This document shows positions 23,932-29,666 of a stretch of DNA of 45,650 bases, piece by piece. How positions within the stretch are numbered: the stretch's first letter is position 1; every line of letters starts with the position of its first letter. The notes under the pieces are model-generated. The model saw nothing but the letters and a program-made list of their open reading frames with translations, searched no databases and was not told where the DNA came from. The stretch is from Phycisphaerales bacterium. GTDB taxonomy: Bacteria; Planctomycetota; Phycisphaerae; Phycisphaerales; UBA1924. Both the position numbers and the translations under genes were made by a program. The stretch is taken from positions 1-45,650 of the forward strand of contig JAEPQP010000007.1 of NCBI GenBank assembly GCA_017640485.1. Direction: 5' to 3'.

Positions 23932-24747
23932 ATGAACTGGAATCGAACCGCACGAGGCGCTGCGGATGTGAAGCTGATCATCGCGATCCTCTTTGCTGTT
24001 GGAGGACTGTCGTGGGCCGTCGTGTCCTTTCTATCGAGCGGCAGCAGCGAAAATGACAACGAACCCCGCGTGGTCGCATCCGCGCTCGACGATGAGGGGA
24101 ACGAGGTCGATACCGCTTACACCAAAGCGAGCACTCAGAAGCAGATCGATCGCGTACAAGCAGAGATCGAGTCCGTGATCCGCTCGCAGGCTGTGAATGA
24201 ACTCAACAAGATCGATGCGCCCAAAGGGCTCCCCGACGGCATCAGCGACGCGACCATCAACGCGTTCATCCCGATCCTCAGCGGCGATCAGGATTCGTTC
24301 TTCGACGCGATCCAAGCGATGGGCGGCGAACTTCCAGGCGATCTCGAATCCGAGCACCCGCTTTTCAAGCATCTCGCTGGAGTCTTCAAGCACGCGAAGG
24401 TGGATCTGAACCGGATTACCGTCGAGCGGTTTGTTGAAGAGCCGCGTGGTGGAGGGATGCGGATGCGCCGGGAGGTGACCGCTGAAGAAGCCGAGGATGT
24501 GCTGGGTGGTGAAGAGCAACGCACTCGCATCCAATCGCAGGTGATGGAGATGCACCCCGCATCCATCTTCCCCGATGCACCACCCAAGCAGGACGCGACG
24601 GCCGTGCAGATCAAGATCCCGGTCCAGCCCAAAGGCGAGAAGCATGAATCCGTGTTCGCGTTGATCCTGACCTGGAACAAGGACGCGAAACTCTGGCAAC
24701 CCGCCGCGTACCAGATGATCAACAACCGGCGCATGGAGGACGGATGA
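23932..24747 (+). CDS. membrane-anchored hypothetical protein
   Basis: The 271-aa product has one N-terminal membrane helix (residues ~13-34, VKLIIAILFAVGGLSWAVVSFL) and a large, charged, mostly helical outer region. There is a basic insert EEPRGGGMRMRREV and a C-terminal part with beta-strand character. I recognise no family. AGGAG at 23921-23925 marks ATG 23932. Its last codons carry the SD of the following pseudopilin gene, and TGA overlaps the next ATG, so the two are translationally coupled. It may be a partner of that pseudopilin, but nothing else supports this. Confidence 0.7.
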   Translation: MNWNRTARGAADVKLIIAILFAVGGLSWAVVSFLSSGSSENDNEPRVVASALDDEGNEVDTAYTKASTQKQIDRVQAEIESVIRSQAVNELNKIDAPKGLPDGISDATINAFIPILSGDQDSFFDAIQAMGGELPGDLESEHPLFKHLAGVFKHAKVDLNRITVERFVEEPRGGGMRMRREVTAEEAEDVLGGEEQRTRIQSQVMEMHPASIFPDAPPKQDATAVQIKIPVQPKGEKHESVFALILTWNKDAKLWQPAAYQMINNRRMEDG

Positions 24748-25571
24748 TGCGCACGCGATCTTGCACACGACCCAACGCGTTCTCACTGATCGAGCTCCTG
24801 GTCACCATCGGGATCATCGGCGTCCTGATCGGGCTGCTCCTCCCCGCACTCAGCGGTGCGCGGAGTTCGGCGCTCCAGACCGTGGCGCTGAGCAATGTGC
24901 GTTCAGTGGGGACGCAGTTCCAGCAGTTCTCCGGCGATGAAGGGAAGTACCCCCAGCAGAATCTCGGAGAGCTTCCCCCCGGGCTCGATCTGGGGAGCGA
25001 GTTTGTCCCGGAGGACGATGTGATCATCAGCGCCTGGTATCCCGGCGGGGTCGTGATCGCAACCACAGACTACTTCGATCACGACTGGATGTGGCCTGCG
25101 ATGGTCGCGCCGATCGATGATTGGCCCAACTACTGGGAGACCTGGATCTCGCCTCGAAAGGACCAAGAACTGCCCGATCTGGATGACATCGGATTCGATT
25201 CGGATATCGAGATCCGCGACATGATCTCGATCGCGTATTCAAACTCCTTCGTCGCTCGTCCGGAATACTGGAACGGCCAATCACACGACGGGGATCTGAC
25301 CCTCCTCAGAGCGGTCCGACCGCACGATGTCCGCTACCCATCCGGGAAGGCCATGCTCTGGGACGACGATCTGTCCTACATGAGCGGGAAGCAGACCCCC
25401 GAACGGATCGATGGATTGCTCGACGCCAAGACCCCCATGGCATTCGCGGATGGTCACGCCGATGCGCTGCTCCCAAGCGATGCAGGTGAGTCAGTGCAGA
25501 ACTCGATGAACGGGGAGTCGACCAAGCTCCATAACACCAAGGACGGCGTCCACGGGAGAGACTACAACTAG
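24747..25571 (+). CDS. prepilin-type protein (pseudopilin-like)
   Basis: The 274-aa protein has the type IV prepilin signature NAFSLIELLVTIGIIGVLIG near the N-terminus, cleaved before Phe by a prepilin peptidase. A membrane helix and then a globular domain follow. FADGH near the C-terminus (position ~230) is typical of planctomycete prepilin-like secreted proteins. The ATG at 24747 is best spaced from GGAGG (24735-24739); ATG 24744, which overlaps the previous stop, is the alternative. It forms an operon with the preceding membrane-anchored protein and is convergent with the 25627 pseudopilin. No pilus assembly genes are in the window, so it likely uses a type II secretion-like system encoded elsewhere. 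Confidence 0.85.
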   Translation: MRTRSCTRPNAFSLIELLVTIGIIGVLIGLLLPALSGARSSALQTVALSNVRSVGTQFQQFSGDEGKYPQQNLGELPPGLDLGSEFVPEDDVIISAWYPGGVVIATTDYFDHDWMWPAMVAPIDDWPNYWETWISPRKDQELPDLDDIGFDSDIEIRDMISIAYSNSFVARPEYWNGQSHDGDLTLLRAVRPHDVRYPSGKAMLWDDDLSYMSGKQTPERIDGLLDAKTPMAFADGHADALLPSDAGESVQNSMNGESTKLHNTKDGVHGRDYN

Positions 25572-25619: not shown

Positions 25620-25664
25620 ATCCGCATTACTTCCATCGCTCGGGCGACTCGATGTAATGCGGAT
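25620..25664. repeat. 11-bp inverted repeat at the 25627 gene end
   Basis: ATCCGCATTAC (25620-25630) and GTAATGCGGAT (25654-25664) are exact inverse complements around a 23-nt loop, and an inner CATCG/CGATG pair extends the fold. The arms span the last codons of the minus-strand pseudopilin gene and the convergent gap to 25571. There is no T-run, so a simple intrinsic terminator is not supported. A bidirectional 3'-end hairpin is possible. Confidence 0.5.
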
Positions 25665-26442
25665 TGTTCTGCGCCGAGATCGATCCGATCCCATGCTCAG
25701 GAATGTTCCGAGCGTCCACGGCGTGTTGATTGCGATGGACCGAACCATCGACGCGTGCGTTGATCGCCTTCCCGAACCCAGTGCTCTGGTCGATGCCGTG
25801 CCTGAACGAAGTGGTGGGGGAGAAGTTCTCATACCAGAACCCGTTGCCTCCATAGAGCGTGGGCGGATCGAGCAGGGCGCTGCTCGTCGGGAGGTCCCCA
25901 AAGAACGAAATCAACGAGTCCGCGAACACAATCATGGACGCGGGTCTCTGGATCTGATGGAGCTTTGTGGTGCGCTGTTTGATCAGCGTGTGGTACCCGG
26001 TCGTGGCGGGCGCGAGCCCGTACGCGTTGTAGCCGTAGGTCGAGGTAAAGGTGTTGAACTGCCCCTGATGCCGATACGAATCCTCGGGCTGGGACGGGCA
26101 CTCGTACACCGAACGGTCACCCAGCGATGAGCTCAGGTACGGCGAGAGTGTCCCTGAATCATGATCGATCTGCTGAGCGCCCAACCGTTCGGTGCCGAAC
26201 CAGTATTGCCGGTCCGATGAGTGTGTCTGGATATGGGGCATCGACAACCCCCGATGATCATCCGCGTACAGCGTCCATCCCAGCGTGAGCTGCCGGAGAT
26301 TCGATTCGCAAACAACCGCTCGCGCACTCGCTCGAGCGGATGCAAGCGCGGGGAGCAGTATCCCGATCAGCAGCGCAATGATCGCGATGACGACCAGCAG
26401 CTCGATCAGCGTGAACCCAAATGGGCGACGGGCGTCGGTCAT
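25627..26442 (-). CDS. prepilin-type protein, last gene of the cobalamin-riboswitch unit
   Basis: The 271-aa protein has a perfect prepilin signal, [28 protein letters not shown], with cleavage after Gly9. The mature part starts with the amphipathic helix expected of pseudopilins. A C-terminal segment [12 protein letters not shown] matches the metal-binding-like DGSV(H) end seen in many planctomycete prepilin-like proteins. Its ATG overlaps the stop of the PQQ-propeller gene by 4 nt, so the two are translationally coupled. It is therefore probably under the control of the upstream cobalamin riboswitch. It may be an extracellular or pilus-like partner of the propeller protein, which is inference. 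Confidence 0.85.
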
Positions 26443-28022
26443 CGGTTCCCCCTCAGCGATTCGATCGGCGCGTGCCCATCGACCACATCGCGGATCTGCT
26501 GGATCAGTGATCCAGTGATGGGTGCTCGAGAGAGATGAAGCGAGGCGATCCCCGACGATGAGGTCGTCAGGACCCGATTCCCAAAGAGCGCGGGGGTGGT
26601 GCCCGCATCCTTCTGCGTCGAGATCACAAACCCCGATTCAGTCGGATGCTTGCTCAGGTCGATCGTGTGGAGTGATCCCGCGTGTGTGAGCGGATCGTTG
26701 AATGTCGGAGGGAGCATGCTCCCAACCAAGAGTTTGGGCGAACCCCGATCTCGATACACCAACGGCTGGTGCCCCCAACCACCAAGCGACAGGTATGGCT
26801 CTCCTTGATCCCATTGCCCATTGGTATTGAGATCCTCATGGGTTGCCTCGAAGGAGTCCCACAGCACGACCGCCGAATCCCCGAGGTCCTCGATCAACTC
26901 GATCGCGGGAAGCGATCCGCTGAAGAAAGTTGATGGGGAAGTGGGGACCCCACCCGACACGACAATCCGGCCGTCGCCCAGAATGACCGGAGCCGCGTCT
27001 GTTCGCACGGTCGGGGCACTCCATTGAACCTGCCCATCACTTGCGCGGAGCTTGATGGTGTTGGCGCTCCGCTGACCCCCGCTGAAGTTGTAGCTCGATG
27101 CGTACACCGCGCCGTCAGCGACACTCACCCCGCTGAAGAACCCGATCGGCTGCGGGTTCTGGGTATCCCAGAGCGGTTCGGGAGTCATCAACGCGCGTGC
27201 ATCGAATGCTAGAACATGACCCGCACCCCCCGACCCGTTGTCCGCAGTGGACACATACACCACGCCGTCGTGATACGCCGGGGTGTTGCCCGAACACTCG
27301 CCTGGAAGACCCGCGGCCCACACCAGTTCCCCGGGTTGATACGGATTGAGCACCGCATCGAACGGATCAACATTCACACAGTACAGCATCCCCAATGACC
27401 CGCTCGAGAACGAATAGTCGGTCAGGAAGACCCGATCTGAGCAATCCAGATCATCCGTCACACACGGCGACGCGTTCACCAAAGGCATCCCAAGATCGAT
27501 CGACCACACCTGCTCCCCGCTCAAGCAATCGATCGCCAGAAGTGTGAAACCCGCAGCGACCACGATCGTGTTGTTGTGTGGATCAATCGATGGGGAGGAC
27601 CACGAATCGAGCAGTTTGAACGGGATCTCGGATGACCACACCATCGAGCCATCATTCAGATCAAACGACGAGAGCCGATGCGTGAACTCTTGATCGAGCC
27701 CGAGCACATAGACCCGTTCATCATCACACACAGCGCTCGCGTGCGGGGTGAAACTGAGCTGCAGATCGCCGTCTCCATCGCTGATCCAGTCCGGATCAAG
27801 CAGAATCGAACCGCTGGTCTGGTTGGTGGGGGAGTTTCCGTTTCGGAGTGATGAACCCCCAAGCTGAGACCACCAAGCGGATTCGACCGCGATCTGATTC
27901 TGAAACTGGTCCGAACTGATCAAGCCCCCGGTTGAACCCCCGATCGACCCCCCGCTTGCTGACTGCGCGTGCGCCGCTCCAACCCAGCACATGGACGACA
28001 GGATGGCAATCTGGAGTTTCAT
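26439..28022 (-). CDS. secreted PQQ-like beta-propeller protein
   Basis: The 527-aa protein has a signal peptide [20 protein letters not shown] (cleavage AHA|Q). It then has a repeat series typical of PQQ/WD-like beta-propellers, e.g. [34 protein letters not shown] and [17 protein letters not shown]. No catalytic residues of a quinoprotein dehydrogenase are seen, so it is more likely a binding or scaffolding propeller. ATG 28022 has GGAG 9 nt upstream. It lies 115 nt after the PEP-CTERM gene, with a strong hairpin in the gap, and overlaps the pseudopilin start. A propeller next to a surface protein under B12 control recalls Bacteroidetes B12-uptake loci. Confidence 0.84.
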
Positions 28023-28093
28023 GATGGTCGGCTCCGGGAAGGGCAGTTCATTGAATCCGGCACCGCGTGTTTCCACACTGTGCCGAGGAAGAT

Positions 28094-28137: not shown

Positions 28138-28977
28138 TCATCGACGACGACGCACCGCTCCAAGCCCGAGCAGCGATGCGATCATCAGTGTGCTCGGAGC
28201 AGGAACCACTGCGACCGCGTCGATCTCGAACGCTTCACCCGATTCGTTGAGGAAGCGAACAAAGCTCGCGGATTCCAATCCAGTCGAAGCGATGTCGATC
28301 CCGACGCCGCCGCCTGAGCCGTTGTAGAAATCGCGAAGCTCAGCGAACGTCATGTTCGCAAGATCCGATGCTGCCAAGGTCGGATCCATCGCAAGCGTGA
28401 AATCAGTTTCGACACTTCCCGGCGAGAACGGGGTCGCATCGATGAAGTCGCTGTAGCCAAGTGTTGGGAAGAGATCCAGCTTCGTAGTCGTCGCGGTGAT
28501 CCAGTTGACCCCATCAGCAGAAACTTGAACCGTTGCGGCTCCGCCTGCTCCAAAGATGAATGGATTCGCACCGGTAAACCCGGTCCCGTCGTTGTTGGGA
28601 TCCGCATCCGTCCAGGTCGTATCAGCGATACCAGCATTCGAGAAGATGATCAGATCAACCCCGAACAGGTGGGATGCATTGTTGGTGATTGCGCGATCAA
28701 ATCCCAATGACAGATGCCCACCCGCTCCGATCGAGACGATCTCATCGGTCCCGAATGCAGGGTTGAACGGGGTCACCCCGCTCGGGAAGACCCCCTCGCC
28801 CGTGAATCGCTCGGCGCTACCGAGGGCTGTTGACGCATCGGTGTAGTCCACGGCGGCGTTGGACCCCGCGTCGTACGACAGCACCGATGTCGCGAACGAT
28901 GAAACGCCCGCTATTGAGAGCGATGCAGTGGAGGCAATCACAACGATCGCGCTGTGGGTTCCTGTAAAATTACGCAT
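28138..28977 (-). CDS. PEP-CTERM surface protein under a cobalamin riboswitch
   Basis: The 279-aa protein has a signal peptide (residues ~1-29) and a C-terminal sorting tail: Val-Pro-Ala-Pro, a short hydrophobic stretch and RRRR, so it is probably exosortase-processed. The core is beta-rich. GAGGHLSLGFDRAITNN, FGVDLIIFSNAG and VQVSADGVNWI recall the beta-sandwich surface proteins next to cobalamin receptors in Bacteroidetes. I infer a cobalamin-binding or capture role, but no ligand residue can be named. ATG 28977 has AGAG 8 nt upstream. The 183-nt leader before it begins at the riboswitch end (29161). No transporter gene is adjacent. Confidence 0.78.
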   Translation of the reverse strand: MRNFTGTHSAIVVIASTASLSIAGVSSFATSVLSYDAGSNAAVDYTDASTALGSAERFTGEGVFPSGVTPFNPAFGTDEIVSIGAGGHLSLGFDRAITNNASHLFGVDLIIFSNAGIADTTWTDADPNNDGTGFTGANPFIFGAGGAATVQVSADGVNWITATTTKLDLFPTLGYSDFIDATPFSPGSVETDFTLAMDPTLAASDLANMTFAELRDFYNGSGGGVGIDIASTGLESASFVRFLNESGEAFEIDAVAVVPAPSTLMIASLLGLGAVRRRR

Positions 28978-29160
28978 GTTCAGACTCTGCTTCCTGCCCA
29001 ATCCTGTTTTTGGGCGTGTGATGTGTTGTCCTGTTTCGCGCAGGACACTCCCCAGAACTTCATCATCGGATCACGCGACTTTTCGATTGGGGGCGGGGGA
29101 CGAGCGCAGGGAGGGGCGCACAACCGATCCGCCGACCCATTACGCGAGGTCCGACACATC

Positions 29161-29358
29161 TGTTGAGGCAGGTCTTCCGGCTCAGGGCTCAGATCGCTCA
29201 CCTTCCCGACGCTTGATCCAATCTATGAATCGCGTCAGTGGCTGCCGAGTGTTCGGCTGAGCGGTCGTCGATGCCCGTTACGGCGGCGCGTCCGCGGTGG
29301 AGTCTCACCACACTTCCCTATTCACCAAGAGATCCACGATCCCTCGGCACCTTCAACA
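29161..29358 (-). promoter_or_regulatory. cobalamin (B12) riboswitch
   Basis: The minus strand carries all conserved parts of the adenosylcobalamin aptamer in order. P1 pairs TGTTGA (29353-29358) with TCAACA (29161-29166). TAGGGAAGTGTGGTGAGACTCC lies in the 5' core (about 29299-29320, shown as motif only). GCCACTG is at 29236-29242 and GGGAAGG at 29201-29207. The B12 box AGCCGGAAGACCTGCC is at 29167-29182. The length of 198 nt is typical. High cobalamin would normally lower expression of the following genes. Downstream hairpins in the 28978-29160 leader (GTGTCCTG/CAGGAC and CCCAA/TTGGG) lie near the start codon and suggest translational control. Confidence 0.93.
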
Positions 29359-29399
29359 CACGGACTGTACCAAGCACAGCCCGATGAAGCAAATCCAGA

Positions 29400-29666
29400 T
29401 TAAGCCAGTTTGGAAATCAGACGCGCCAACGCCTGTGGATCGCGTTTGGTCACAACCGGTGTCCACAATTCTGGTTTGATCGAGGTTTTCGCGAGTGCCT
29501 GCTCGGCGCGTTTCCAGAGCGTGTTGAGCTTCTTGGAGTTCCCATCCGCGAGCGCGATGTCGGTCACGATCTCCCCGAGCCGAGTCGCGATGATGGTGTC
29601 CTGATTGTCGTAGTAGCGGTTGATGACCTTCCGCTGGTACTGGGAATATTCGCGTCCACCAGCCAT
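29400..29666 (-). CDS. small hypothetical protein
   Basis: The 88-aa product starts MAGGREYSQYQRKVINRYY and is rich in Arg, Lys and Leu; it looks like a short mixed-helix soluble protein with no signal or membrane segment. I recognise no family with confidence. The pattern YQRKVINRYYDNQDTI near the N-terminus resembles small helical proteins found across bacteria. ATG 29666 has GAGG 7 nt upstream. Extensions upstream run through the tRNA-Lys gene and are rejected. It is followed at about 40 nt by the cobalamin riboswitch in the same direction, which probably begins its own transcript. Confidence 0.6.
   Translation of the reverse strand: MAGGREYSQYQRKVINRYYDNQDTIIATRLGEIVTDIALADGNSKKLNTLWKRAEQALAKTSIKPELWTPVVTKRDPQALARLISKLA

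Follow-up and report, generated by a model that had tools for sequence, protein, structure and literature searches.

The window, a stretch of 45,650 nucleotides from a Phycisphaerales draft genome (92.6% complete, 250 contigs), carries on its minus strand a cobalamin riboswitch, the only one found in that genome, and a unit of three genes downstream of it. The features are as follows.

29150..29370, minus strand: cobalamin riboswitch aptamer (RF00174), full length, 76.5 bits, E 3.1e-17
29287..29291, minus strand: aptamer loop L5 (ACGCG in GGACGCGCC), half of a proposed L5-L13 loop-loop contact
29134..29151, minus strand: P13-like hairpin GACC-UCGCGUAAUG-GGUC just 3' of the aptamer, with a loop (29147-29143) complementary to L5
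28996..29015, minus strand: 6-bp hairpin GCCCAA/TTGGGC immediately before the ribosome-binding site
28138..28977, minus strand: gene 1, predicted exported BtuH-like protein with a PEP-CTERM-type tail, 279 aa (homology, AlphaFold model)
26439..28022, minus strand: gene 2, predicted exported eight-bladed PQQ/BamB-type beta-propeller, 527 aa (PF13360 4e-13; AlphaFold pLDDT 87.4)
25627..26442, minus strand: gene 3, DUF1559-type pseudopilin with a prepilin N-terminus, 271 aa (PF07963 and PF07596 above cut-off)

The aptamer and its leader RNA

The complete cobalamin aptamer that the initial annotation had placed at 29161-29358 falls inside the RF00174 match at 29370-29150(-), and the covariance-model scan of the minus strand that it had proposed bears the assignment out, with a match that spans this range at 76.5 bits against a gathering cut-off of 31.5 bits (Rfam cmscan). 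The match covers model positions 1-189 of 189 and is not truncated, and the 6-bp P1 (TGTTGA/TCAACA), GCCACTG, GGGAAGG and the B12 box all lie in order within the alignment. Judged by its sequence, the RNA at 29370-29150(-) is a genuine vitamin B12 sensor. It shares the full aptamer, L5 and a complementary 3' hairpin loop with the RF00174 cobalamin riboswitches and is unusual only in the genes that it would regulate.

Complementarity between L5 and the loop 3' of the aptamer is present in the window and conserved beyond it. Of 121 family loci, 116 have ACGCGCC as L5 and 117 have a C[TGC]CGCG motif (CUCGCG or a near variant) in the loop of a hairpin that directly follows the aptamer. The two loops change together in several other families of the class and could still pair, as UCCCG with CGGGA in loci L142 and L144; in L141, L143 and L145-L148 this holds in part. 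We take this pairing to be the L5-L13 contact of cobalamin riboswitch structures. A test for kissing-loop complementarity of the peripheral aptamer loop was negative (median p 0.53).

The second hairpin lies directly before the ribosome-binding site AGGAAG (28995-28990), and its stem shows many compensatory changes among 12 congeners, such as ACCCGC/GCGGGT, CGATGC/GCATCG, GAACGC/GCGTTC and GGGCGC/GCGCCC. Minimum free energy folding of the leader gave no informative signal (z -0.89) and the promoter scan recognised no sigma-70-like promoter. The terminator scan returned one unconvincing candidate, inside gene 2; transcriptional termination as the mode of control is thus unsupported, and the riboswitch more likely acts on translation.

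An 88-aa gene without a Pfam or NCBIfam match lies just upstream of the aptamer at 29400-29666(-). It was considered as a partner of the riboswitch and set aside, with synteny seen in close congeners only (6 of 78 loci), as against a downstream operon that is almost always retained.

The three gene products and the relation of gene 1 to BtuH

Gene 1 starts at the ATG at 28977, and its C-terminus, which ends VPAPSTLMIASLLGLGAVRRRR, is laid out as VPAP, a helix at residues 263-276 and RRRR. The scores of the single sequence against PEP-CTERM models are below cut-off (PF07589, 14.6 against 20.7 bits; TIGR03370, 18.2 against 25.35 bits), but the VPxP...RRRR tail is kept in nearly all of 23 aligned relatives. 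An exosortase is encoded in the source genome (G000:C110, E 7e-43) and was found in each of the 31 family genomes tested. By motif, transmembrane helix, basic tail and genomic exosortase, gene 1 is a predicted PEP-CTERM/exosortase substrate, and its product would be located at the cell surface. The description of the first downstream gene as an exported surface protein of exosortase type is upheld. Its contrast with transporters, receptors and cobalamin enzymes does not hold, as gene 1 falls in the BtuH superfamily of B12-binding proteins.

This homology was reached through relatives of gene 1. Loci of this kind show two gene orders: type 1, that of the window, with BtuH-like gene, PQQ propeller and pilin, and type 2, with another propeller, BtuH-like gene and pilin. 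Searches of the PDB with the gene 1 sequence alone and with the profile of its own family gave no BtuH match. A single type-2 relative, by comparison, matched BtuG1 (8BLW_B, E 7e-24) and BtuH2 (7BIZ, E 2.5e-20), and the type-2 profile matched the H domain of BtuG1 (8BLW_B) with E 5.5e-33 and BtuH2 (7BIZ) with E 1.4e-26; the gene-1 and type-2 families in turn align with E 3e-25 (hhalign). The structure predicted for gene 1 by AlphaFold (pLDDT 81.8) points the same way: these two BtuH-domain entries were its best Foldseek matches in the PDB (8BLW_B, E 7.6e-6), and fold comparison gave Z 12.9 for 7BIZ (rmsd 3.7, 147 residues aligned) and Z 12.5 for 8BLW, with generic CBM32-like jelly rolls trailing at Z of about 11. 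That gene 1 encodes a diverged homologue of the Bacteroides BtuH B12-binding domain is well supported by the type-2 relatives together with the predicted fold.

In Bacteroides thetaiotaomicron, BtuH2 binds B12 at the cell surface and is needed for efficient B12 transport; its contacts with B12 include Gln333 and Asn399 (PMC8941943). BtuG1 of the BtuB1G1 complex bears a fused BtuH domain (PMC10404256). Comparison of six BtuH2 contacts (Gln333, Asn399, His476, Tyr510, Trp511 and Trp577) showed that Gln333 and Asn399 map to invariant columns of type 2 (PAPGQ and a GNA/SNA motif, respectively); Leu578 is also largely retained there. The gene-1 family retains only the Asn column, which is at least 90% conserved and is represented by N114 in the window protein; it has no equivalent of Gln333, none of the aromatic contacts and no counterpart of the C-terminal BtuH2 strand GWLGEVS. 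With these contacts missing, the putative B12 pocket of gene 1 may differ from that of BtuH2; binding of B12 by gene 1 is suggested by analogy with its Bacteroides homologues.

Gene 2, for which an alternative GTG start exists at 28076, follows gene 1 after about 115 bases without a convincing terminator, and genes 2 and 3 share an ATGA overlap. The best fold matches of the gene 2 model are eight-bladed designs, YxaL and BamB; BtuG, to which gene 2 may nonetheless be related, is absent among the matches listed. The profile of the type-2 propeller gave weak matches only, mostly to designed propellers. Gene 3 has a GspG-like N-terminus and scores 31.0 against 21.2 bits for PF07963 and 33.6 against 23.3 bits for PF07596. 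A second pseudopilin-like gene with an N_methyl motif, at 24744-25571(+), is convergent to the operon pilin, in a position kept in close relatives within the genus.

The known systems most similar to this operon are those of Bacteroides. BtuH2 (BT_1956, 7BIZ) and the H domain of BtuG1 (BT_1490, 8BLW) share with gene 1 a homologous jelly roll and export, and are likewise found at B12-riboswitch loci with a beta-propeller gene or domain alongside. The planctomycete proteins differ in having a PEP-CTERM tail or dockerin-like repeats rather than a lipid anchor, and their operon in having a pseudopilin partner and no BtuB; the window protein, moreover, lacks several of the BtuH2 contacts. BtuG2 (BT_1954) and gene 2 are both exported propellers encoded at a B12-regulated locus next to a BtuH-type protein, but BtuG2 is a seven-bladed propeller of the YncE-like BtuG type that captures B12, whereas gene 2 is predicted to be eight-bladed and BamB/YxaL-like, without evident BtuG kinship. 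Another comparison is with Mucisphaera calidilacus, presumably a member of the Phycisphaerae. Its DUF4465 protein 'Pan' binds B12 according to a paper in which planctomycetes, PEP-CTERM and pilins go unmentioned (PMC13398666). The DUF4465/BtuJ proteins are exported jelly-roll cobamide binders of a family distinct from gene 1, and gene 1 gave no DUF4465 match.

Conservation of the riboswitch with its operon

An RF00174 match occurs in 150 of the 163 family genomes, nearly always exactly one per genome, which argues that the match is more than chance. Downstream DNA was scored with purpose-built profiles at 121 family riboswitch loci, including that of the window, and 101 of the 110 loci whose downstream sequence reached 3.6 kb or more had the BtuH-like gene, the propeller and the pilin together. 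A complete riboswitch stands ahead of a PEP-CTERM-type gene, in line with the proposal of the initial annotation that surface proteins are part of a planctomycete B12 regulon.

The association was also approached from the protein side. The gene-1 profile matches 212 of 298 genomes of the class, and 20 loci from different families were fetched by this profile only and then scanned with Rfam. All 20, which were hand-picked across the score range rather than drawn at random and were found with profiles trained on family loci, had an RF00174 match upstream on the same strand and a pilin gene downstream. Across these class-wide loci no gene accompanies the BtuH-like gene more constantly than the pilin, which is present even without a recognised propeller. 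Several of the loci L138-L157 have no recognised propeller between riboswitch and pilin. A phylum-wide search with type 2 was swamped by dockerin-tail matches and gave few genuine domain matches outside the class. One planctomycete locus outside the class (L218, G442:C58:36314-37072) has a BtuH-like domain in a 649-codon frame, possibly a BtuG1-like fusion. No relatives of gene 1 were found on plasmids.

Two riboswitches occur in each of five family genomes (G146-G149 and G159). Those of G149 divide the system between them, one standing before the BtuH-like gene by itself and the other before the propeller and pilin, and one of the two in G159 lies ahead of a propeller alone. The second riboswitch of G146-G148 (L159, L162 and L163) precedes a lone protein of a further PEP-CTERM family (FDDIxFWVGxGSNEAALVIDWN...SLAWGFRxDGxATGxDML), for which no Pfam, NCBIfam or PDB match was found. 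By the predicted nature of their products, the targets in all five genomes stay within surface proteins.

Apparent need for B12 and its possible route into the cell

Among 61 evenly sampled family genomes, the B12-dependent methionine synthase (MetH) domain was found in 60, CbiC in none and MetE-like matches, partial only, in 3; the source genome has MetH and lacks CbiC and MetE. With CbiC as a single marker, which leaves room for other routes to corrin, MetH without CbiC points to a family of B12 auxotrophs. The rest of the conserved operon, together with the apparent lack of corrin synthesis beside a B12-dependent MetH, also favours B12 acquisition as its function. The operon is most likely a B12-repressed unit for surface cobamide capture in a B12-auxotrophic planctomycete of the Phycisphaerales.

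In such an operon, the leader RNA would leave the messenger translatable when B12 in the cell is low. Binding of B12 would let L5 dock with the hairpin that follows the aptamer (L5-L13), with a fall in the expression of the three genes. The BtuH-type jelly roll of gene 1, anchored outside the cell by its PEP-CTERM tail, would bind cobamides with gene 2 as an exported propeller partner, and the gene 3 pseudopilin would either export the proteins of genes 1 and 2 or move them with their cargo. A BtuC-type ABC transporter whose gene lies beside metH could then bring the cobamide into the cytoplasm, where it would serve the B12-dependent methionine synthase. A BtuC/FecCD-type permease gene is indeed convergent with the adjoining metH in the source genome (L127, G000:C143, 2022-6569), and likewise in several relatives, and its product is likely the inner-membrane B12 importer.

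The step across the outer membrane, which in well-studied Gram-negatives runs through the TonB-dependent BtuB, allows several readings. Since the proteins belong to the same class as BtuG and BtuH, which load BtuB in Bacteroides, they might load a conventional TonB-dependent receptor. The source genome does encode one such receptor (L128), but it sits on another contig and scores far below the BtuB equivalog cut-offs (67.5 against 599.7 and 49.7 against 836 bits; best family TOL_0244). The conserved operon encodes no TonB receptor, as a BtuB-dependent uptake locus would, and 51 of the 61 family genomes have no TonB-receptor plug at all (10 have one), which makes this route improbable. Among those without a plug are the about 100% complete G079 and the single-contig G150, both with the operon and MetH and without CbiC and MetE. 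The same scarcity of plugs would suit uptake driven by a pilus, in which a fibre built from the pilin, or including it, would bring bound cobamide into the periplasm by way of a secretin. The presence of the pilin at each of the 20 class-wide loci, with or without a detected propeller, also speaks for such uptake, as do secretins in all 31 family genomes examined, and pili-like fibres of other planctomycetes bind dextran, with crateriform structures proposed to act in uptake (PMC5394234). These fibres are, however, known from other planctomycete classes. That riboswitch-controlled BtuH-like proteins of B12-auxotrophic Phycisphaerae pass their B12 to a dedicated pseudopilus, or travel on it themselves, via a secretin and without TonB is a proposal with circumstantial support that is speculative and rather unlikely.

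Dedicated export by the pseudopilin is a credible option, with the chances somewhat against it: a type II secretion-like pseudopilus would place both the BtuH-like and the propeller protein at the surface, with B12 itself entering by an unrelated channel. Pseudopilins serve secretion in known systems, the N-terminus of gene 3 is GspG-like, and secretins were found in all 31 family genomes examined (4-8 each). On the other hand, an adjoining pilin gene is not known to be necessary for the other exported PEP-CTERM or dockerin proteins of these genomes, and no outer-membrane B12 channel was identified. Secretin domains lie within very long frames (3,600-4,750 codons) in many family genomes (e.g., G098:C11, G068:C3 and G079:C13). 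Finally, many PEP-CTERM proteins belong to the matrix or the cell surface and DUF1559 pilins are common in planctomycetes, so the products could serve adhesion or the matrix, with B12 merely a signal. The BtuH homology, the apparent auxotrophy and the fact that nearly every genome spends its single B12 riboswitch on this one operon make such a function very improbable and favour surface capture of cobamides.

With capture as the preferred reading, the riboswitch itself is ordinary and the regulated system is a variant on the BtuG/BtuH theme of Bacteroides. BtuH, BtuG and BtuJ in Bacteroides and the binding of B12 by the Mucisphaera DUF4465 protein were already known; what sets this system apart is that its BtuH-like catchers end in PEP-CTERM or dockerin-like sequences, that its propeller is a different one, that a pilin is dedicated to it and that its operon has no BtuB. 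Neither BtuH in planctomycetes nor the three-gene operon turned up in the open-licence PMC papers searched. BtuH-type B12 capture would thereby extend beyond the Bacteroidota, and a concrete role can be offered for one DUF1559 pilin and one PEP-CTERM protein, members of large and functionally obscure groups. The operon also names specific genes with which passage of B12 across the outer membrane without BtuB can now be probed. Many genomes of the family need B12, appear incapable of its synthesis and are mostly free of TonB-receptor plugs, yet nearly all of them use their one B12 riboswitch for this surface operon; it looks as though a whole class of B12-dependent planctomycetes catches the vitamin in this way, mostly without the outer-membrane transporter known from other bacteria.
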